Below, one piece after another: positions 1,446 through 50,657 of a stretch of DNA of 64,000 bases. The position numbers and the translations under genes are program-made. Location: NCBI RefSeq assembly GCF_030553305.1, contig NZ_JARRAH010000001.1, positions 1,674,001 to 1,738,000 on the forward strand, read 5' to 3'. How positions within the stretch are numbered: position 1 is the first letter of the stretch; each line of letters opens with the position of its first letter. The stretch comes from Halomarina ordinaria (GTDB lineage: Archaea > Halobacteriota > Halobacteria > Halobacteriales > Haloarculaceae). The notes beneath the pieces were generated by a model. It did not search any database. It worked only from the letters and a program-made list of their open reading frames with translations, and was not told the DNA's origin.

Positions 1446-3272
1446 ATGAGTCAGGCACGAGACGCGAAAGTCTACGTCAACGGCAGTCTGGTCGGTACCC
1501 ACCCCGACCCCGAGAAGCTCGCGAGCGACATCCGGCAGGCGCGCCGTCGCGGCGACGTCAGTTCGATGGTGAACGTCTCCGTCAAGGGGCGTACCGGCGA
1601 GGTCATCATCAACGCGGACGCGGGGCGAGCCCGTCGGCCGCTCATCGTCGTCGAGAACGGCGAGCCGCTCCTCACCGACGAGGACGTCGAGGCGCTCGAG
1701 GCGGGGCAGATCGAGTTCCACGACCTCGTGGAGACGGGCGCCATCGAGTTCATCGACGCCGAGGAGGAGGAGGACATCTACGTCGCGGTCGACGAGGACG
1801 ACCTCACGACCGACCACACCCACCTCGAGATCGACCCGCAGCTCATCTTCGGTATCGGCGCCGGGATGATTCCGTACCCGGAGCACAACGCCAGCCCGCG
1901 CATCACGATGGGGTCGGGGATGATCAAGCAGTCGCTCGGCCTGCCGAGCGCGAACTACCGCATCCGCCCCGACACCCGCCAGCACCTGCTGCACTACCCG
2001 CAGCTCTCGATGGTCAAGACCCAGACCACGGAGCAGATCGGGTTCGACGACCGCCCGGCGGCGCAGAACTTCGTCGTCGCCGTGATGAGCTACGAGGGGT
2101 TCAACATCGAGGACGCGCTCGTCCTCAACGGCGGGTCGGTCGACCGCGCGCTCGGGCGCTCGCACTTCTTCCGGACCTACGAGGGCGAGGAGCGACGCTA
2201 CCCCGGCGGCCAGGAGGACCGCTTCGAGATGCCCGACGACGAGGTGCGCGGCGCGCGCGGCGAGGAGGCGTACACCCACCTCGACGAGGACGGCCTCGTC
2301 AACCCCGAGACCGACGTCGACGAGAACGACGTCCTCCTCGGGAAGACCTCCCCGCCGCGGTTCCTCGAGGAACCCGACGACATGGGCGGGCTCTCCCCCC
2401 AGAAGCGCCGCGAGACGAGCGTGACGATGCGCTCGGGCGAGAACGGCACCGTCGACACGGTGACGCTCATGGAGGGCGAGGACGGTTCGAAGCTCTCGAA
2501 GGTCTCGGTCAGGGACGAGCGCATCCCCGAACTCGGGGACAAGTTCGCCTCCCGGCACGGCCAGAAGGGCGTCATCGGCCACATCGCCCCCCAGGAGGAC
2601 ATGCCCTTCACGCAGGAGGGGGTCGTCCCGGACCTCATCGTCAACCCGCACGCGCTCCCCTCGCGCATGACGGTGGGTCACGTCCTGGAGATGCTGGGCG
2701 GGAAGGTCGGCGCGCTGGAGGGACGGCGCGTCGACGGGACCGCCTTCCAGGGCGAGGACGAGGCGGAACTGCGCGACGCCCTGCAGGACCACGGCTTCGA
2801 GTCCTCGGGCAAGGAGGTCATGTACTCCGGCGTCACCGGCGAGAAGATCGAGGCCGAGATCTTCGTCGGCATCATCTTCTACCAGAAGCTCTACCACATG
2901 GTCTCGAACAAGATTCACGCGCGCTCGCGGGGGCCGGTCCAGGTGCTCACCCGCCAGCCGACGGAGGGGCGCGCCCGCGAGGGCGGCCTGCGCGTGGGTG
3001 AGATGGAACGCGACGTGCTCATCGGTCACGGCGCGGCGATGGCGCTCAAAGAGCGCCTGCTCGACGAGTCCGACCGCGAGTTCATCGACGTCTGTGGCAA
3101 CTGCGGGATGACCGCCGTCGAGAACGTCGAGCAACGGCGGGTCTACTGTCCGAACTGTGGCGAGGAGACGGACATCCACGAGCTCGAGATGAGCTACGCG
3201 TTCAAACTCCTCCTCGACGAGATGAAGGCGCTCGGCATCGCCCCGCGCATCGAACTGGAGGACGCGGTCTAA
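1446..3272 (+). CDS. rpoB1: DNA-directed RNA polymerase subunit B'
   Basis: C-terminal half of the split second-largest RNA polymerase subunit, 608 residues, the usual length for the split form. Diagnostic motifs are [28 protein letters not shown] (catalytic-centre lysines), [20 protein letters not shown] and [16 protein letters not shown]. Near the C-terminus CGNCG...YCPNCG forms the zinc-binding site of the clamp region. ATG start one base after the rpoB'' stop; rpoA1 follows after 3 bases. It carries much of the active-site wall and binds A' and the D/L platform. No sign of truncation or frameshift. Confidence 0.98.
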
Positions 3273-3275
3273 TAC

Positions 3276-6203
3276 ATGAGTGTAAACCAGTCACCCAAGG
3301 AGATCGGGTCCATCAGCTTCGGGCTGATGAACCCCGAGGAGTATCGAGACATGTCCGCGACGAAGGTCATCACCGCGGACACGTACGACGACGACGGGTT
3401 CCCCATCGACATGGGGCTGATGGACCCCCGACTGGGCGTCATCGACCCCGGGCTGGAGTGCAAGACCTGCGGGAAGCACTCCGGGTCGTGTAACGGGCAC
3501 TTCGGGCACATCGAGCTGGCCGCGCCGGTCATCCACGTCGGGTTCTCGAAGCTCATCCGACGGCTGCTGCGCGGCACCTGTCGGGACTGCTCGCGCCTCT
3601 GTCTCACGGAGGAGGAGCGCGACGAGTTCCGCGACCGTCTGGAGCGCGACCGCCAGCTCGGTAACGACCTGAACAACGTGACGAAGGCGGCCATCCGTCA
3701 GGCGCGCAAGAAGTCGCGCTGTCCGCACTGCGGCGGCAAGCAGTACGACATCAACCACGAGAAGCCGACGACCTACTACGAGGTCCAGGACGTCCTCTCG
3801 GCGGACTACGCCGAACGCATCGCCGCCGCGATGGAGGGGCGCGCCCTCGAGGAGGAGGACCCCGAGGACGTCGACCGCGAGCCGATGTCGCCCGTCGACC
3901 TCGCGGAGAAGACGGACATCGACAGCTCGCGCATCAACGAGATCATCTCCGGGGAGTTCCGCCCGCGCCCCGCCGACCGCGAGTCCATCGAGAAGGCCCT
4001 CGGCATCGACCTCACCGAGGAGGACATGAACAAGCTGATGCCGAGCGACGTCCGCGACTGGTTCGAGGACATCCCCGACGAGGACCTCCGCGTGCTCGGC
4101 ATCGACGAGGAGCGCTCGCGCCCCGAGTGGATGATACTGACCGTGCTCCCGGTACCGCCAGTGACCGCGCGACCCTCCATCACGCTCGACAACGGGCAGC
4201 GCTCCGAGGACGACCTCACGCACAAGCTGGTCGACATCATCCGCATCAACCAGCGGTTCATGGAGAACCGCGAGGCGGGCGCGCCACAGCTCATCATCGA
4301 GGACCTGTGGGAGCTGCTCCAGTACCACGTGACGACGTTCATGGACAACGAGATCTCGGGCACGCCGCCGGCCCGCCATCGCTCCGGACGGCCGCTGAAG
4401 ACGCTCAGCCAGCGCCTGAAGGGCAAGGAGGGGCGGTTCCGCGGCTCGCTCTCGGGCAAGCGCGTGAACTTCTCCGCTCGCACGGTGATATCGCCGGACC
4501 CGACGCTCTCGCTGAACGAGGTCGGCGTCCCCGACCGCGTGGCGACGGAGATGACCCAGACGATGAACGTCACCGAGCGCAACCTGGAGGAGGCGCGCCG
4601 GTACGTTCGCAACGGCCCGGAGAGCCACCCCGGGGCGAACTACGTCAAGCGCCCGGACAACCGACGGCTGAAGGTGACCGAGAAGAACTGCGAGGAGCTG
4701 AGCGAGAAGGTCGAGGCCGGCTGGGAGGTCAACCGCCACCTCGTCGACGGCGACATCGTCATCTTCAACCGACAGCCCTCGCTGCACCGCATGTCCATCA
4801 TGGCCCACGAGGTCGTGGTGATGCCGTACAAGACCTTCCGGCTGAACACGGTCGTCTGCCCGCCGTACAACGCCGACTTCGACGGCGACGAGATGAACAT
4901 GCACGCCCTCCAGAACGAGGAGGCGCGCGCCGAGGCGCGCGTGCTCATGCGCGTGCAGGAGCAGATTCTCTCGCCGCGCTTCGGCGGGAACATCATCGGC
5001 GCCATCCAGGACCACATCAGCGGGACGTACCTGCTGACCCACGAGAACCCGCGGTTCAACGAGACGCAGGCGCTCGACCTGCTCCGGGCGACCCGCGTCG
5101 ACGAACTGCCCGAGGCGGACGGCGAGGACGAGGCGGGCGTCCCCTACTGGACCGGCCGCACCATCTTCACCGAACTGCTGCCCGACGCGCTGAACCTGGA
5201 GTTCACCTCCTCGGCGGGCGACCCCGTCGTCATCGAGGACGGCGTGCTGGTCGAGGGGACGGTCGACGAGGACGCGGTCGGCGCGTTCGGCGGCGAGATC
5301 GTCGACACCATCTGCAAGCAGTACTCGACGACGCGTGCCCGGATGTTCATCAACGAGGTGGCGTCGCTGGCGATGCGCGCCATCATGCACTTCGGGTTCT
5401 CGGTCGGCATCGACGACGAGTCGGTGCCCACGGAGGCCGAAGAGCAGATCACGGAGGCCATCGACAACGCCTACGACCGCGTCGAGGAGCTCATCCGGAC
5501 GTACGAGGCGGGCGACCTGGAGAGCCTGCCCGGTCGGACGGTCGACGAGACCCTCGAGATGAAGATCATGCAGACCCTCGGGAAGGCCCGCGACAGCGCG
5601 GGTGACATCGCCGAGGAGTACCTGGAGGAGGACAACCCGGCGGTCATCATGGCCCGCTCGGGGGCCCGCGGCTCGCTGCTCAACCTGACCCAGATGGCCG
5701 GCTGTGTCGGCCAGCAGGCGGTTCGGGGCGAGCGCATCAACCGCGGCTACGAGGACCGCACCCTCAGCCACTACCAGCCCAACAACCTGTCGGCGGACGC
5801 CCACGGCTTCGTGGAGTCGTCGTACCGGTCCGGCCTCGGCCCGCGGGAGTTCTTCTTCCACGCGATGGGCGGCCGCGAGGGGCTGGTCGACACGGCGGTG
5901 CGCACCTCGAAGTCCGGCTACCTCCAGCGACGGCTCATCAACGCGCTGTCCGAACTGGAGACGCAGTACGACGGGACGGTGCGCGACACGAGCGACACCA
6001 TCGTCCAGTTCGAGTTCGGCGAGGACGGCACCAGTCCGGTGACCGTCTCCTCGTCGGCCGACAACGACATCGACGTGGACGACATCGCGACCCGCGTGCT
6101 CGACGCCGAGTTCGAGGACGAGGGCGACGCGTTCCTCGAGGACCAGGACCGACAGACGAACCTCTCCGAACAGATGGACAGCATGGCGCTGGGTGACGAC
6201 TGA
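3276..6203 (+). CDS. rpoA1: DNA-directed RNA polymerase subunit A'
   Basis: N-terminal part of the split largest RNA polymerase subunit, 975 residues. C62/C65/C72/H75 ([14 protein letters not shown]) and a second cluster (CRDC at 102-105, CPHC near 149-152) are the N-terminal zinc sites. [12 protein letters not shown] at about residues 532-543 holds the three Asp that bind catalytic Mg. Residues about 205-250 carry an insert that reads like a helix-turn-helix ([15 protein letters not shown] then [11 protein letters not shown]), which probably explains part of the extra length compared with non-halophilic A' subunits of under 900 residues. Trigger-loop and C-terminal parts are in the separate rpoA2 gene directly downstream. 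Confidence 0.98.
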
Positions 6204-6204
6204 A

Positions 6205-7419
6205 ATGGCGACAGTGGACAACGAGACGAAGGCGGTCGTCGAGGGGACGGACCTCCCCCGACGGCTCAAGGACGAGGTGTATCGCGTCGTCGACGAGAAG
6301 GGCGTCTCCGACACGGAGACCGTCGAGGAGATAGCCGCGCGCGTCGAGCGCCGGTATCTCGACACCCGCGTCGACCCGCTCGACCCCGTGGGGACCGTGA
6401 GCGCGCAGTCCATCGGGGAGCCGGGGACGCAGATGACGATGAACACGTTCCACTACGCGGGCGTCGCCGAGATCGACGTCACGCAGGGGCTCCCCCGGCT
6501 CATCGAGCTGGTGGACGCCCGCAAGACGCCGAACACCCCGATGATGACGGTCTACCTCGAGGACGAGTTCGCGGTCGACCGCGAGCGCGCCCACGAGGTC
6601 GTCTGGAAGGTGGAGGCGACGCGCATCCTCGCGCTCGGTGACGTCTCGACGAACGTCGCGGACATGCTCGTGCGCATCGACCTCAACGAGGAGACGCTCG
6701 ACGAGCGCTGGCCGACCGTCGAGGCGACGGAGGACATCACCGCGGAGGTCGCCGCGACCATCGAGAGCGAACTCGGCGTCGAGACCGCCCGGCCGGAGCC
6801 GACGGTCGTCGAGTTCGGCCCCGAGGAGCCGAGCTACCGCGGCCTCCTCCAGCTGGTCGAGGAACTGCGCGACATCGTGTTCAAGGGCATCGACGAGGTG
6901 TCGCGCGTCGTCATCCGCAAGGAGGCGACCGACGAGGGGGGCGAGGAGTTCGTGCTCTACACCGAGGGGTCGGCCTTCGGCAAGACCCTCGAGATAGAGG
7001 GCGTCGACGCCTCGCGGACGACGTGTAACAACATCCACGAGGTCCACCGCCAGCTGGGCATCGAGGCGGCCCGCGAGGCCATCATCGAGGAGACGATGAA
7101 CACGCTCGAAGAGCAGGGGCTGGGCGACGTGAACATCCGCCACCTGATGCTCGTCGCGGACATCATGACCAACCGCGGGGAGATCGAGTCCATCGGCCGC
7201 CACGGCATCTCCGGCAACAAGGACTCGGTGCTCGCCCGTGCGGCGTTCGAGGTGACGGTCAACCACCTCCTCGACGCCGCCATCCACGGCGAGATAGACG
7301 ACCTCGACGGCGTGACGGAGAACGTCATCGTCGGCAAGCCAATCCGCCTGGGGACGGGCGACGTGAACCTGCGGATGGGGACCGTCGACCGCGACGCCGT
7401 CGACGCCGACGCGGACTGA
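6205..7419 (+). CDS. rpoA2: DNA-directed RNA polymerase subunit A''
   Basis: C-terminal part of the split largest subunit, about 404 residues. [20 protein letters not shown] with FHYAGV is the trigger-loop region that positions the incoming NTP. I choose ATG at 6205, two bases after the rpoA1 stop, giving MATVDNETK; an in-frame GTG at 6193 would overlap rpoA1 by 11 bases and is less likely. The C-terminal part ([19 protein letters not shown]) matches the conserved end of archaeal A''. It is part of the rpo operon and is followed after 3 bases by nusA. Confidence 0.97.
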
Positions 7420-45031: not shown

Positions 45032-46015
45032 TCACTCCGCCCGGTCGAGCGCCGTCGCCGCGAGGTCCACCGCCGTCTCCAGGTCAGGTCCCAGCGGCGC
45101 CCCCACCACGACGCTGTCTGCGTACTCGAGCAGCGACCCGAGGCGGTCACCCACCGTCTCGGGCGTCCCGGCCGCCGAGAAGGCGTCGAGCATCGCGGGC
45201 GTCACGCGCTCGAACGCCTCGCTGAACGACCCCGCGCTGATGGCGTCGCCGATGGCTTCGGCGCGCTCGGCGTCGACGCCGTGGCGCTCCAGCACCGGGG
45301 GAGCCGCCCCCGCGGTGATGAACGCCACGGGCGGCCGGGCCGCCTCGCGGGCGGTCGCTTCCTCGTCGGCGACGCTCACGCTCGCGTACGCCGCGAGGTC
45401 GAAGTCGCCGCGCGACTCGGGGCGCTCGTCGAGTCCTTCGTGTACGCGCTCGCGCGCCCACGCGAGGTCCTCGGGGTGCGAGCCGTTGAACAGCAGGCCG
45501 TCGGCGTGTTTCGCGGCCATCCGGCACATGTGCGGCCCCTCGCCGCCGACGTAGACCGGAATCGAGTCGCCGCTGGGCGGCGCGTAGTTCAGCCCCGCGT
45601 CCTCGGCGACGAACGTCCCGTCGTGGGTGACACGTTCGCCGCGCCAGAGCGCCTGCGCGCTCTTGAACGCCTCCAGCACCGGTCGGAGGCCTCGCTCGTC
45701 GAGCAGGCCGAGGTTCCGGAGCGTCGAGGGGTCGCCCGGTCCGATGCCGAACACCGCCCGACCGTCGCTCACCTCGTCGAGCGTGGCGACCGAGGAGGCC
45801 AGCCTGACGGGGTGGGTCTCGTAGGGGTTCGCCACCCCCGGCCCGAGGCGGACCTCGTCGGTCGCCCTCGCGATACCCGAGAGCGCGACGAACGGGTCGC
45901 GGTTGTTGTAGTGGCAACTCGTGAACACCGTGTCGAAGCCCGCACGCTCGGCTCGCCGGGCGAGGTCGACCACCCGGGAGACGTCGTGTTCGGGCGTGAG
46001 TTCGATTCCTCTCAT
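45032..46015 (-). CDS. mer: F420-dependent methylenetetrahydromethanopterin reductase-like LLM oxidoreductase
   Basis: 327 residues from ATG 46015 (MRGIELTPEHDVSRVVDLAR). LLM-class TIM barrel with conserved features: VFTSCHYNNRDPFVALSGIA, GVANPYETHPVRLASSVATLDE and VGGEGPHMCRMAAKHADG. The Mer family uses coenzyme F420 to reduce methylene-tetrahydromethanopterin or a related folate. It overlaps cofE by four bases (ATGA), linking it to F420 synthesis. The true C1 carrier in haloarchaea (probably a folate derivative) is not shown by sequence. Confidence 0.9.
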   Translation of the reverse strand: MRGIELTPEHDVSRVVDLARRAERAGFDTVFTSCHYNNRDPFVALSGIARATDEVRLGPGVANPYETHPVRLASSVATLDEVSDGRAVFGIGPGDPSTLRNLGLLDERGLRPVLEAFKSAQALWRGERVTHDGTFVAEDAGLNYAPPSGDSIPVYVGGEGPHMCRMAAKHADGLLFNGSHPEDLAWARERVHEGLDERPESRGDFDLAAYASVSVADEEATAREAARPPVAFITAGAAPPVLERHGVDAERAEAIGDAISAGSFSEAFERVTPAMLDAFSAAGTPETVGDRLGSLLEYADSVVVGAPLGPDLETAVDLAATALDRAE

Positions 46016-46764
46016 GACGGAAACTCCCACTCCTCGAGGGCCTGGCGGACCAGGTCGTCCTCGCGCGCACGAAACAGGGCGTCGCTACCGGCGTGGTCGC
46101 CGAAGTCGAAGTCGCGGACGACGACGACGGGCGTGCCGCCACTCCCCTCGCCGGAGACGAGGTTCGCGGCGGCGGCGAGTTCGTCCACGACGGCCTCGAC
46201 GGTGACGCCCAGTTCCCGGCCGTCGCGGTCGCGCTCGCCGCGCCAGTCGCGACTCGCGGGCAGGCCGGCCCACCCGATGGCGACGCCGCGCTGGCCGTGG
46301 CGGAACGGCCGCCCGCACGTGTCGGTGACGACGACGGGCGTCCCCAGCGATTCGGAGAGCGCCCGCGCGCTCGCCGTCGGGTCCTCCGGGAGGAGGAGCA
46401 GGTCCGCCTCGGGGACGTTCGAGCGGTCGATGCCGGCGTTGACCGTGACGTGCCCGAAGCGCGTCTGCGTCAGGAGGAAGGGCGCCTCCAGCAACAGCGC
46501 GCTCGACTCCTCCAGGACGACCTGCGCGAACCGGGGGTCCTTCGCCTCGCCCGTGACGGCTTCGAGTCGCTCGGCGACGGCGCGGGCACGCTCGCCGGCC
46601 GTCACGTCCGCGAGGTCCATCGTCCGGCCCTCGGCCTTCGAGACGACGGTGCTCGCCACGCAGACGACGTCGTCGGCCCGCAACTCGACGCGCTCCTCGA
46701 CGAGCGACGCGAGGTCGTCGCCCGCGCGTATCTCGGGCAGGTCGGGGACCGCGAACACCTCCAT
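46012..46764 (-). CDS. cofE: Coenzyme F420-0:gamma-glutamyl ligase
   Basis: 250 residues from ATG 46764. GRPFRHGQRGVAIGWAGLP and VVSKAEGRTMDLADV are CofE signatures; it adds glutamates to F420-0 using GTP. The bacterial C-terminal nitroreductase-like domain is absent, as usual in archaea. Co-transcribed with the mer gene. Intact. Confidence 0.93.
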   Translation of the reverse strand: MEVFAVPDLPEIRAGDDLASLVEERVELRADDVVCVASTVVSKAEGRTMDLADVTAGERARAVAERLEAVTGEAKDPRFAQVVLEESSALLLEAPFLLTQTRFGHVTVNAGIDRSNVPEADLLLLPEDPTASARALSESLGTPVVVTDTCGRPFRHGQRGVAIGWAGLPASRDWRGERDRDGRELGVTVEAVVDELAAAANLVSGEGSGGTPVVVVRDFDFGDHAGSDALFRAREDDLVRQALEEWEFPS

Positions 46765-46860: not shown

Positions 46861-47658
46861 CTACTCCGCCGAGAGCGTCCACCCGCCGTCAGCCTGAACG
46901 TTCAGGTAATAGATACCGTCGAGCCGTTCGGAGGTCGACGCCTCGGTACTCCCGATTTCGTTTATCAAGATGCGGTCGTCCAGCGTGTCGCCCTCGACGG
47001 CGTACGCCTCGACGATGAAGTTCCGCTCACCCTCGTGCGTCCCCGAGACTTCAGTCACGCCGCTGAACGCGTACGGTCCCTCGTACTGGTTGCCCGACCC
47101 GGACAGGTCGACGGGAGCGTCCTCCGCCCCATCAGTCCCTGGCTGCGCGAGTTCGATGGTCCACTCACCGTCCGCGTCGACGTTGAGTTGGTACGGCCCG
47201 CTCCCGAGGCGGTTCGCCTGCCCTCCCTCGACCGCACCGATTTCGTTGACGAGGATGCGGTCGTCCAGTTCGTCGCCCTCGACGGCGAGCGCTTCGGCGA
47301 TAAAGTTTCGCTCCCCGTCGTGCGTGAAGTCGACGGTCACAACCCCACCCGACACCTCGAACTCGTCACTCGTGTCGGTGCCAGAGCCCTCGAACGAGTA
47401 CGACTCGCCGGCGGACGAACCGGAACCGTCAAGGTCGGAGTCGTTCTCTGTGTCGTCTCCGGTATCGTCCCCGGTGTCGTTATTCCCGTTTCCGGTGCCG
47501 AGTGTCCCGTCCTCGGAGACGCCCGAGGACTGGTTCGTCTCCCCGTCGTCGCCACCCGATTCGTTCCCCTCCGTCGACTCCGCACACCCGGCGAGCGGGA
47601 GAAGTGCGGTCGAGCCGGCTAGCGCCAGATAATACCGTCTTGTCAGTGACGTTTCCAC
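46861..47658 (-). CDS. Tat-type lipoprotein with two tandem repeats
   Basis: 265 residues from GTG 47658, which lies 27 bases downstream of a TATA-like ATATTTATTA. The signal has R7-R8 and lipobox LAGC25, so the mature protein is lipid-anchored. A Gly/Asp/Ser/Thr-rich linker (27-100) is followed by two copies of a 70-residue unit at about 103-172 and 193-264: each contains H(D/E)GERNFI, VEGDxLDDRIL(V/I)NEIG, and a final Trp strand (GEWTIEL/GGWTLSA). A beta-sandwich-like surface protein is likely. Function unknown. Confidence 0.85.
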   Translation of the reverse strand: METSLTRRYYLALAGSTALLPLAGCAESTEGNESGGDDGETNQSSGVSEDGTLGTGNGNNDTGDDTGDDTENDSDLDGSGSSAGESYSFEGSGTDTSDEFEVSGGVVTVDFTHDGERNFIAEALAVEGDELDDRILVNEIGAVEGGQANRLGSGPYQLNVDADGEWTIELAQPGTDGAEDAPVDLSGSGNQYEGPYAFSGVTEVSGTHEGERNFIVEAYAVEGDTLDDRILINEIGSTEASTSERLDGIYYLNVQADGGWTLSAE

Positions 47659-47675
47659 ACCAGAGTTAATTACTG

Positions 47676-47700
47676 TCTGGTAATAAATATACAGTGACAA
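47676..47700 (-). promoter_or_regulatory. TATA box of the tandem-repeat lipoprotein gene
   Basis: Minus-strand ATATTTATTACC, centred about 27 bases from the GTG at 47658. Decides the start in favour of this GTG over the longer ORF that begins with TTG at 47700. Confidence 0.7.
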
Positions 47701-47740: not shown

Positions 47741-48247
47741 TTACCGCTCCTCGGCGCTCACCTCGTACGCGCCGTCGGAACAGCGGACGACGAGCATGGT
47801 CGTCCGCATCGCGGGGTCGGCACCCGTCGCGCTCCCCGGGTTCAGCAGTCGGAGGTCGTCCAGTCGCTCGTCGGTGAGCTGGTGGGTGTGTCCGCTGACG
47901 CCGACGACGGGGCCGTCGTGGTCGTCGGCCTCGGCGCGGACGACGCCCTCGACGCGCTCGCGGTAGGTGTCGAGGGCACCCGTCCCGTGGGTGACGACGA
48001 ACCGGACGCCGTCGAGGTCGACCGACGCCACCTCCGGGAGGTCGCCGTCGGCCATCGGGGGGTCCATGTTCCCCCGGACGGCCGTCAGTTCGGCGGCGAG
48101 GTCGACGACCGTCTCGTACGCCTCCCGGGAGTCGAAGTCGCCGGCGTGAATCGTGTGGTCGGCCGCCCGCACCTCGTCTCGCACCCACGCCGGAATCCCC
48201 ACCGCCCGCGAGGGGACGTGGGTGTCGCTGATGATGGCAACGCGCAT
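47741..48247 (-). CDS. YfcE/MJ0936-type phosphodiesterase
   Basis: 168 residues from ATG 48247 (MRVAIISDTHVPSRAV). Calcineurin-like metal ligands: SDTH near 8-11, HAGDFD, RGNMD and SGHTHQ. Acts on small phosphodiesters. Start shares a gap of about 60 bases with the divergent NUDIX/eIF2B-like gene. Usually a single-domain cytosolic enzyme in archaea. Confidence 0.9.
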   Translation of the reverse strand: MRVAIISDTHVPSRAVGIPAWVRDEVRAADHTIHAGDFDSREAYETVVDLAAELTAVRGNMDPPMADGDLPEVASVDLDGVRFVVTHGTGALDTYRERVEGVVRAEADDHDGPVVGVSGHTHQLTDERLDDLRLLNPGSATGADPAMRTTMLVVRCSDGAYEVSAEER

Positions 48248-48308
48248 GGCCGACCCGTCGGCGGGGAACGGTATAAGCGTCCCGCGGTCCCACACGCCTG
48301 CGAGTGCC

Positions 48309-49580
48309 ATGGACGAGACCCACGTCGTCACCTGCTTCCTGCGCGAGGGGAGTGACGTCCTCCTGCTCCGGCGGAGCGACGCCGTCGGGTCGTACTCGGG
48401 GCTGTGGGGGGCGGTCGCCGGCCACGCCGAGAGTGACCCCGACGCGCTCGCGCGCGAGGAGATAGCCGAGGAGACGGGGCTGCTCGACGGCTGTGCATTC
48501 GTCCGCCGGGGCGACCCCGTGGAGGTGCCGGACGACGCCCTCGGCGTACGCTGGGTGGTCCACCCCTACCTGTTCGACTGCGACTCGCGCGCCGTCGAGA
48601 CGAACGACGAGAGCGTCGCCCACGAGTGGGTCCCGCCGACGGAGATACGCGAGCGCGAGACGGTACCCGACCTCTGGCGGTCGTACGCCGCGGTCGCGCC
48701 CACCGTCGAGCGCGTCGCCGAGGACCGCACCCACGGCGCGGCGTACCTCTCGCTGCGCGCGCTCGAAGTCCTCCGGGACCGGGCGGCGGAGGGTGAAGCG
48801 TGGGCCGACCTCGCCGACCTCGCCCGCGACCTGCGAACCGCTCGACCGAGTATGCCGGTCGTGGCCGCCCGAATCGACCGGGCGATGGCCGGCGCGCTCG
48901 ACGAGGCGGACGGAGAAGCGGAGCCGGCCACCGTCGCGGAACACGCGCAGACCGGCATCGACCGGGCACTCTCGGCCGACGCACTGGCCGCCGAGGCAGT
49001 CGTTGCTACCCTCTCCGACCTCGTGGAGGCGGACCGCGCTCCTCGAGTCCTCACCTGCTCGCGGTCGGGGACGGTCCGCGAGGCGCTCGCGGGCGCCGAC
49101 CTCGACCGGGTCTTCGTCGCCGAGTCGCGCCCCGGGGGCGAGGGCGTCGGGGTGGCCGAGACGCTCGCCGAGGACGTGGACGTGACGCTCCTCCCGGACG
49201 CCGCCGTCGCGCAGGCGCTCGCCGACGAGGGCGTCGACGCCGTCCTCGTCGGGGCCGACGCGGTGCTCTCGGACGGCCGGGTCGTGAACAAGGTCGGGAC
49301 GCGCGCGGCGGCGCTCGCGGCGCACGAGGTCGGTGTCCCCACCTACGCCGTCGCCGCCGCGGACAAGGTGAGTCCGACGACCGACGCACACCTCGAGAAG
49401 CGGGAGCGGGAGGCCGTCTACGGGGGCGATGCCCCGCTGTCGGTCTACGCACCCACCTTCGACGTGACGCCCGCGGAGCGAGTGACGCTCGTGACGGAGG
49501 ACGGCCCGCAGTCGGTCGAGGACGTCCGTGCGCAGGCGGCGGCCGCCCGCGACCGGGCGCGGTGGGTCGAGCGGGCGTAG
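48309..49580 (+). CDS. NUDIX hydrolase fused to eIF2B-like/ribose-1,5-bisphosphate isomerase-like domain
   Basis: 423 residues from ATG 48309. N-terminal NUDIX domain (about 1-135) with AGHAESDPDALAREEIAEETG, where the usual Arg of REUxEE is Glu. C-terminal eIF2B-like domain (about 145-420) with LTCSRSGTV, VLVGADAVLSDGRVVNKVG and PTYAVAAADKVSP. In the R15P isomerase family, catalytic Cys and Asp fall in such TCSR and GAD motifs. A joint role in nucleotide salvage (hydrolase plus isomerase) is suggested. Similar fusions occur in haloarchaea; the substrate is unknown. Confidence 0.88.
   Translation: MDETHVVTCFLREGSDVLLLRRSDAVGSYSGLWGAVAGHAESDPDALAREEIAEETGLLDGCAFVRRGDPVEVPDDALGVRWVVHPYLFDCDSRAVETNDESVAHEWVPPTEIRERETVPDLWRSYAAVAPTVERVAEDRTHGAAYLSLRALEVLRDRAAEGEAWADLADLARDLRTARPSMPVVAARIDRAMAGALDEADGEAEPATVAEHAQTGIDRALSADALAAEAVVATLSDLVEADRAPRVLTCSRSGTVREALAGADLDRVFVAESRPGGEGVGVAETLAEDVDVTLLPDAAVAQALADEGVDAVLVGADAVLSDGRVVNKVGTRAAALAAHEVGVPTYAVAAADKVSPTTDAHLEKREREAVYGGDAPLSVYAPTFDVTPAERVTLVTEDGPQSVEDVRAQAAAARDRARWVERA

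Positions 49581-49733: not shown

Positions 49734-50657
<924 letters not shown>

Follow-up and report, generated by a model that had tools for sequence, protein, structure and literature searches.

A haloarchaeal NUDIX fusion protein whose isomerase-like domain keeps a conserved and probably non-isomerising pocket for a proposed phosphosugar ligand

Halomarina ordinaria carries a gene in which a NUDIX hydrolase is joined to a domain of the eIF2B/ribose 1,5-bisphosphate (R15P) isomerase type, and we tentatively propose that this second domain holds a conserved phosphosugar pocket that is not that of an isomerase and may serve as a sensor or as an altered enzyme. The gene lies at 48309..49580 on the forward strand of the window, the whole stretch of 64,000 nucleotides analysed here, and encodes 423 amino acids plus a stop codon from an ATG start. 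The NUDIX/eIF-2B fusion is itself a known, widespread, and already annotated haloarchaeal architecture that is biochemically uncharacterised; no report on its biochemistry was found among the literature matches listed. New in this analysis are the pocket signature, a split gene pair, and bacterial copies.

Domain architecture and distribution

The first-pass annotation of this DNA had read the protein as a NUDIX domain joined to a domain of the eIF2B-like isomerase type, and both domains were borne out by Pfam, by the predicted structure, and by structural matches. The NUDIX domain (PF00293, 40.2 bits against a cut-off of 21.1) covers residues 7–124 (48327..48680, +), and the eIF2B/R15P isomerase-like domain (IF-2B, PF01008, 147 bits against a cut-off of 22.4) covers residues 141–399 (48729..49505, +). 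An AlphaFold model made with 26 alignment rows was confident over the full length (mean pLDDT 93.8, pTM 0.90). Residues 1–134 matched NUDIX structures, the best among the matches listed being 3grn (Z 15.7). For the C-terminal part (about residues 127–422), R15P isomerases of Pyrococcus and Thermococcus, including 5yfs, 5yfj, and 3a11, took ranks 1–7 (Z 28.1–29.0; E about 4e-19 in Foldseek), which upholds the kinship to R15P isomerase that had been claimed. A Leishmania chain (Z 27.9), eIF2B subunits, and MtnA followed; rows at most 1 Z unit apart count as ties, and the Leishmania chain ties with the lower of the R15P isomerases.

A full-length profile (A1) was built from 26 of 30 loci, with the window's protein standing for L003, and L004, L024, L028, and L031 (stops inside the match) left out. 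A genome was called fusion-bearing at E ≤ 1e-40 to A1, both domains being covered among the matches listed, and by this call the fusion occurred in 232/292 genomes and 71/77 genera of the class. An artefact, a sequencing error, or a frameshift as the origin of the fusion was ruled out because the same architecture recurs across these genomes, and the joining of both domains in one protein is thus confirmed. The closest named locus was that of Halomarina halobia (74% identity). Two congeners were sampled, the fusion being present in one (G156) and absent from the other (G159), and in G033 the match starts at profile position 86, the NUDIX part being eroded. Among 294 genomes across the phylum, no match outside the window's order was better than 2e-42, and no fusion was seen there.

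Conservation of the isomerase-like pocket

The R15P isomerase of Pyrococcus horikoshii (PH0208) uses Cys135 and Asp204 for catalysis; its 1-phosphate ligands are Arg22, Arg65, Gln166, and Lys215, its 5-phosphate is held by Ser137 and Lys240, and the sugar by Asp204, Asn214, and Lys215 (PMC5789824, in excerpt). We compared these positions in a MAFFT alignment of 117 fusions and 14 R15P isomerase references. The 117 fusions are the 132 loci with a BLASTP match at E ≤ 1e-40 minus copies of the window gene and duplicates, and include a copy from a Rhodothermia MAG (L101). The references are the 12 best TIGR00511 matches, all of which passed a THCHS filter, together with L145 and L146, which were not selected by motif. 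Two patterns, one containing TLSRSGTV, had yielded 80 loci, and 69 of the 117 fusions came from that scan, so the counts lean to the motif; a check on the 48 fusions that were not found by pattern gave the same pocket result.

The position of the catalytic Cys (C133/C135) was Ser251 in 117/117 fusions and Cys in 14/14 references, an equivalence that rests on sequence alignment, the structural matches having given residue ranges only. Ser251 lies in the motif T249-C-S-R-S-G-T255 (49053..49073, +), in which S253 stands at the 5-phosphate-binding Ser (Ser137) and was found in 117/117 fusions; K353, the equivalent of Lys240, was found in 116/117. The equivalent of the catalytic Asp204, D317 (49257..49259, +), was conserved in all fusions and in 14/14 references, and N327-K328 (49287..49292, +), which correspond to N214-K215 of the sugar and 1-phosphate sites, in 117/117 fusions. 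Thus, of the two catalytic residues to which the isomerase claim of the first-pass annotation was tied, the Asp stood and the Cys did not. Two of the four 1-phosphate ligands were also changed: the Arg22 position was His in 112/117 fusions and Arg in 5/117, and the Gln166 position was Glu278 in every fusion. The Arg65 position (R179) was kept in 112/117 and was Lys in 5/117.

Residue 250 was Leu in 115 fusions, Ile in 1, and Cys only in the window's protein. Cys250 was rejected as the catalytic Cys, since it aligns one residue before it at this Leu position and a split outgroup also reads TCSYS. The register of the alignment was supported by a pairwise comparison of that split relative (L144, described below) with 3a11, in which TCSYS faced THCHS. 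Among the 117 fusions, 8/14 isomerase ligand, catalytic, or adjoining positions were invariant versus 11/247 other positions of the domain. In the 48 fusions not fetched by motif, the figures were 8/14 versus 20/247 (p 1e-5), and Ser251, S253, E278, D317, N327, and K328 were each present in 48/48.

The fusion thus resembles the archaeal R15P isomerases (TIGR00511; PH0208, TK0185) in fold and in the Asp, Asn, Lys, and 5-phosphate Ser and Lys. It differs from them in having Ser for the Cys, His for Arg22, and Glu for Gln166, in the added NUDIX domain, and in its TIGR00511 score (76.9 bits versus a cut-off of 314.1); the MtnA model TIGR00512 scored 77.8 bits against a cut-off of 279. In the P. 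horikoshii enzyme, C135S abolished isomerisation and retained R15P binding (PMC5789824, in excerpt). Because the key Cys is replaced by Ser, the probable role of the fused domain is to bind or sense a phosphosugar, not to isomerise ribose bisphosphate. A pocket that has lost the Cys but kept the Asp and the contacts to the sugar and the 5-phosphate is what would be expected, by analogy, of a phosphosugar binder that does not isomerise R15P, and the His and Glu at 1-phosphate positions point to a ligand lacking the 1-phosphate.

The AMP pathway in the host genome

The protein had been assigned to the archaeal AMP pathway as a bifunctional enzyme, in which the NUDIX half would feed or clear the substrate and the second domain would convert R15P to ribulose 1,5-bisphosphate. 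The rank of the R15P isomerases among the structural matches (up to Z 29.0) and the Asp, Asn, and Lys kept in every fusion agree with this assignment, but the universal Ser, a substitution that inactivates the P. horikoshii enzyme, the two changed 1-phosphate ligands, and the TIGR00511 score contradict it, and so does the host genome. The AMP pathway is not recognisable there because R15P isomerase and AMP phosphorylase were below cut-off and Rubisco had no match: the best TIGR00511 match reached E 7.5e-47, far short of the genomes over the cut-off (190/292 in the class), and AMP phosphorylase scored 33 bits (cut-off 535).

By hand tally, R15P isomerase was over the cut-off in 140/232 fusion-bearing genomes versus 50/60 genomes without the fusion, "over cut-off" being taken as E < 1e-100, which reproduces the class total. 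The co-occurrence of the two was negative (p 0.0008); 29 of the 60 fusion-less genomes belong to one genus (g17), so it was given no weight. Replacement of R15P isomerase by the fusion was rejected, as those 140 genomes carry both, and the fusion is not simply a substitute. We consider an isomerase assignment unlikely, and the bifunctional AMP-pathway enzyme very unlikely.

The host genome encodes two PF01008 proteins, namely the fusion and L001. L001 (1435-2295) has a THDYS motif and no NUDIX domain, and its convergent, slightly overlapping neighbour gene appeared HAD hydrolase-like by eye. By its annotation, L001 is taken to resemble HVO_2706. It belongs to the same superfamily as the fusion and differs from it in the THDYS motif and the absence of NUDIX.

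The NUDIX half

The NUDIX box region spans residues 38–58 (G38 ... E51-I-x-E54-E55-x-G57-L58; 48420..48482, +) and, if G38 is the first Gly, has 21 residues versus the canonical 23, two short. The canonical box GX5EX7REUXEEXGU was not found intact: its REUXEEXGU part reads EEIAEETGL, with Glu at 51, 54, and 55 retained. Some known NUDIX hydrolases have boxes that are shortened or carry substitutions (PMC5389931, in excerpt, also the source of the canonical motif). Across the family alignment, E51 was kept in 110/117 fusions, and E54 and E55 in 113/117 each. At residue 50, the Arg position of the box, the Glu that had been pointed out earlier is present, but its reading as an unusual change that might alter activity did not hold: residue 50 was E in 34, V in 25, A in 22, R in 21, T in 6, Q in 4, and others in 5 of the 117 members. 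Glu50, which is presumably not among the metal-binding glutamates, was rejected as a special change because the Arg position is variable in the family.

Nine of the 117 fusions differed at one or more of the three glutamates, and the pocket signature was intact in 9/9. Some of these differences are conservative replacements (Glu to Asp in one), one or two are possibly alignment slips, and three of the proteins belong to the 48 fusions not fetched by motif. Eroded NUDIX boxes beside an intact second pocket were observed in L032, L095, L142, and L148, of which L095 and L142 are from Halococcus. The intact pocket beside altered NUDIX glutamates suggests that, of the two halves, the one with the pocket is harder to dispense with. 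This bears on whether the protein might be a NUDIX hydrolase of the ordinary house-cleaning kind, with an inert second domain that acts as a scaffold for oligomerisation. Such a role would suit the glutamates, retained in 110–113/117, and the hexameric state of the related R15P isomerase (PMC5789824, in excerpt); however, the pocket is stricter than those glutamates and outlasts their change in all nine deviant proteins, which makes a mere scaffold decidedly unlikely.

A split gene pair

In G316 (locus L144), which belongs to another archaeal genus, the two parts are separate genes in the same order as in the fusion: a NUDIX gene (4010-4420, −) comes first, and an eIF2B-like gene that overlaps it comes next. 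Should the eIF2B-like gene begin at its second Met, its start codon and the stop codon of the NUDIX gene would lie within one ATGA; the frame also allows a start 15 bases earlier. The NUDIX part was 43% and the eIF2B-like part 28% identical to the window's protein. The same arrangement was found in G325 of the same genus (locus L170), where the NUDIX gene is cut by the contig end, and in all, the split pair occurred in 2/5 genomes searched of the class of G316. The pocket of L144 agrees with that of the fusion at Ser251, S253, D317, N327, and K353, and has Tyr at the position of E278 and Gly at that of K328. Hence, the split pair is like the fusion in gene order and in the Ser at the Cys position, and unlike it in consisting of two genes and in these two residues of L144. 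The overlapping pair favours a functional link between the NUDIX and eIF2B-like parts, and the NUDIX half may, as the first-pass annotation had suggested, supply or clear the ligand of the other domain.

In G453, a relative of the NUDIX part stands by itself, with no eIF2B-like neighbour seen by eye (ORFs of at least 110 aa, 11 kb). In L144, the split pair stands within a same-strand run (3126-6739) with genes for a phosphoribosyltransferase, a UPF0047 protein, and a type I phosphodiesterase/nucleotide pyrophosphatase.

Bacterial copies and phylogeny

The Rhodothermia MAG (L101) carries a full fusion, and the surrounding genes appear bacterial by eye. In the class of this MAG, the full fusion was present in 8/117 genomes (MAG included) at E < 1e-150, and the other 49 matching genomes had values from 3e-28 to 7e-21. 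The pocket signature was kept in 8/8 bacterial copies, one of which is also within the 117 fusions, and the eight formed one group (support 93) in a quick tree that did not settle their placement relative to haloarchaea. Contamination as their source was rejected on the grounds that the gene of G559 lies on a 3.55-Mb contig with bacterial-looking genes, that eight genomes of the class carry the fusion, and that the copies form one group.

In a tree of the eIF2B-like domain, 13 fusions formed one group (100), joined by the split pair (85) and then by L001 (91, with long branches); they stood apart from MtnA-like proteins and from R15P isomerases, the latter falling into two groups of unsettled order. 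The trees are quick ones on partial rows (44 rows in the tree that places the bacterial copies, 13 fusions in that of the eIF2B-like domain) with long-branch warnings, and the sister order is provisional.

In the Rhodothermia-class loci (L193, L194, L185-L190), a PRPP synthetase gene lay close to the fusion in 6/7 loci other than the MAG's own, and a ribosomal protein L25 gene (named by eye) was nearby in the same six. A tRNA-Gln gene stood between the fusion and PRPP synthetase genes in both long loci scanned, and the locus is possibly an insertion spot beside a tRNA gene.

The main alternative to the proposed phosphosugar pocket is a PRPP-splitting NUDIX half, which would hydrolyse PRPP to R15P, with the second domain binding R15P or processing it differently. 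Some NUDIX enzymes are reported to make R15P from PRPP (Fisher 2002), and the PRPP synthetase genes of the Rhodothermia-class loci and the phosphoribosyltransferase gene in the L144 run are in keeping with this. However, the Glu and His at the Gln and Arg positions of the 1-phosphate site disfavour a bisphosphate, the tRNA-Gln between the bacterial genes may only mark an insertion spot, and no PRPP synthetase was found at E ≤ 1e-8 in the flanks (up to 6 kb) of the 80 related loci. Moreover, a table in PMC5389931 (in excerpt) rates the PRPP activity of AP4A_CAEEL as not sufficiently supported. On balance, we judge this alternative unlikely.

A gene with the R15P isomerase motif THCNS lies directly after, and overlaps, a PRPP synthetase-like gene on the same strand in G332 (L171, 2-1596), which suggests an R15P–PRPP link in that class.

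Relation to HVO_1934 and to translation

HVO_1934 of Haloferax volcanii is annotated as "NUDIX family hydrolase/eIF-2B domain protein" and aIF2Bsu (43.2 kDa), and is one of three eIF2B-like proteins of this organism; whether these act in translation or in sugar-phosphate metabolism is disputed (PMC8576121, in excerpt). The fusion shares with it the two-domain annotation, an N-terminal NUDIX and a C-terminal eIF-2B domain in one haloarchaeal protein, and a similar size; it was likened to HVO_1934 by architecture and size, not by sequence, and the two very probably belong to one orthologous family.

Deletion of HVO_1934 left growth unchanged in 12 conditions, and the double mutant with HVO_2706 was viable and grew like the wild type according to the text of PMC3828320 (in excerpt), contrary to the legend of its Fig. 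6, by which the double mutant differs in some conditions (complex, sucrose, xylose). The authors of that study doubted that HVO_1934 is a translation factor, and co-isolation gave no more than one or two interaction partners (PMC8576121, section 15). The fold and the historical aIF2B subunit annotation are what would recommend an archaeal eIF2B-like translation factor subunit with an accessory NUDIX domain, but the viable mutants and the sparse pull-down interactions tell against such a subunit. Its case is further weakened by the presence of the fusion in a bacterial class, as bacteria lack eIF2, and this role seems highly improbable.

Genomic neighbourhood

Upstream of the fusion gene, a divergent gene (47741..48331, −) encodes a YfcE-type metallophosphodiesterase (Metallophos_2, 112.7 bits; TIGR00040, 91.8 bits); its domain starts at Met 29, which places the likely start at 48247 and leaves a gap of about 61 bp to the fusion gene. 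A D-2-hydroxyacid dehydrogenase gene (49743..50657, +; NF041369, 471.5 bits, cut-off 400) lies downstream. Among the 80 related loci (73 with full flanks), F420-0:glutamate ligase recurred in 50, the YfcE-type phosphodiesterase in 47, a luciferase-like protein in 41, and the D-2-hydroxyacid dehydrogenase in 40; for each of these four, the relative strand was constant with a single exception. As a guide to a pathway, the neighbourhood was set aside: the counts are usable and not decisive, and the recurrent neighbours name no phosphosugar pathway.

In the window, the F420-0:gamma-glutamyl ligase and luciferase-like protein genes (45032-46764) overlap slightly. Between the ligase and phosphodiesterase genes, 46861-47700 encodes a predicted protein with a hydrophobic N-terminus, acidic by eye, that had no Pfam match and no homologue in the 80 related loci.

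Discussion

We propose, with some reserve, that the NUDIX half would cut a phosphoribosyl-type, ADP-ribose-like diphosphate. The second half retains the sugar and 5-phosphate contacts (S253, D317, N327, K328, and K353) with Ser for the catalytic Cys and with His and Glu where Arg and Gln hold the 1-phosphate. Because the sugar and 5-phosphate contacts are kept, the catalytic Cys is lost, and two 1-phosphate ligands are changed, the pocket should take a pentose or nucleotide that carries a 5-phosphate, and not R15P. It may act as a sensor, in the way that eIF2B-alpha does with sugar phosphates, or carry out altered chemistry; the retained Asp could mean a live enzyme instead of a sensor. A NUDIX half releasing the ligand of the pocket, e.g. 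ribose 5-phosphate from ADP-ribose, would account for the joining of the two domains in one protein as well as for their coupling as a gene pair. The link of the fusion to phosphoribose would be one of kinship only. Against the model stand the dispensability of HVO_1934, the partial pocket kept by L144, and neighbours that name no phosphosugar pathway.

A wider account is more doubtful. The fused domain may be a distinct functional branch of the R15P isomerase/MtnA/eIF2B superfamily, with a Ser–Asp pocket that takes a 5-phosphosugar or a nucleotide. Together with the NUDIX domain it would form a phosphoribose hydrolase-sensor that arose from a coupled gene pair, spread in haloarchaea, was exchanged with Rhodothermia-class bacteria, and works in some lineages without an active NUDIX half.

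The nearest functional parallel is eIF2B-alpha, which lacks the catalytic Cys (PMC5789824, in excerpt) and accommodates sugar phosphates at what was ancestrally the catalytic site (PMC8187479, in excerpt), as proposed for the fusion; unlike the fusion, it has no NUDIX domain. The human protein is thus a precedent for a sensor built on this pocket. The occurrence of the fusion in most haloarchaeal genera sampled and also in bacteria, with the pocket kept and the isomerase Cys lost, argues for a metabolic ligand, and the pocket signature provides exact residues for testing. The fusion would then give a prokaryotic parallel to the sensing of sugar phosphates by eIF2B-alpha.
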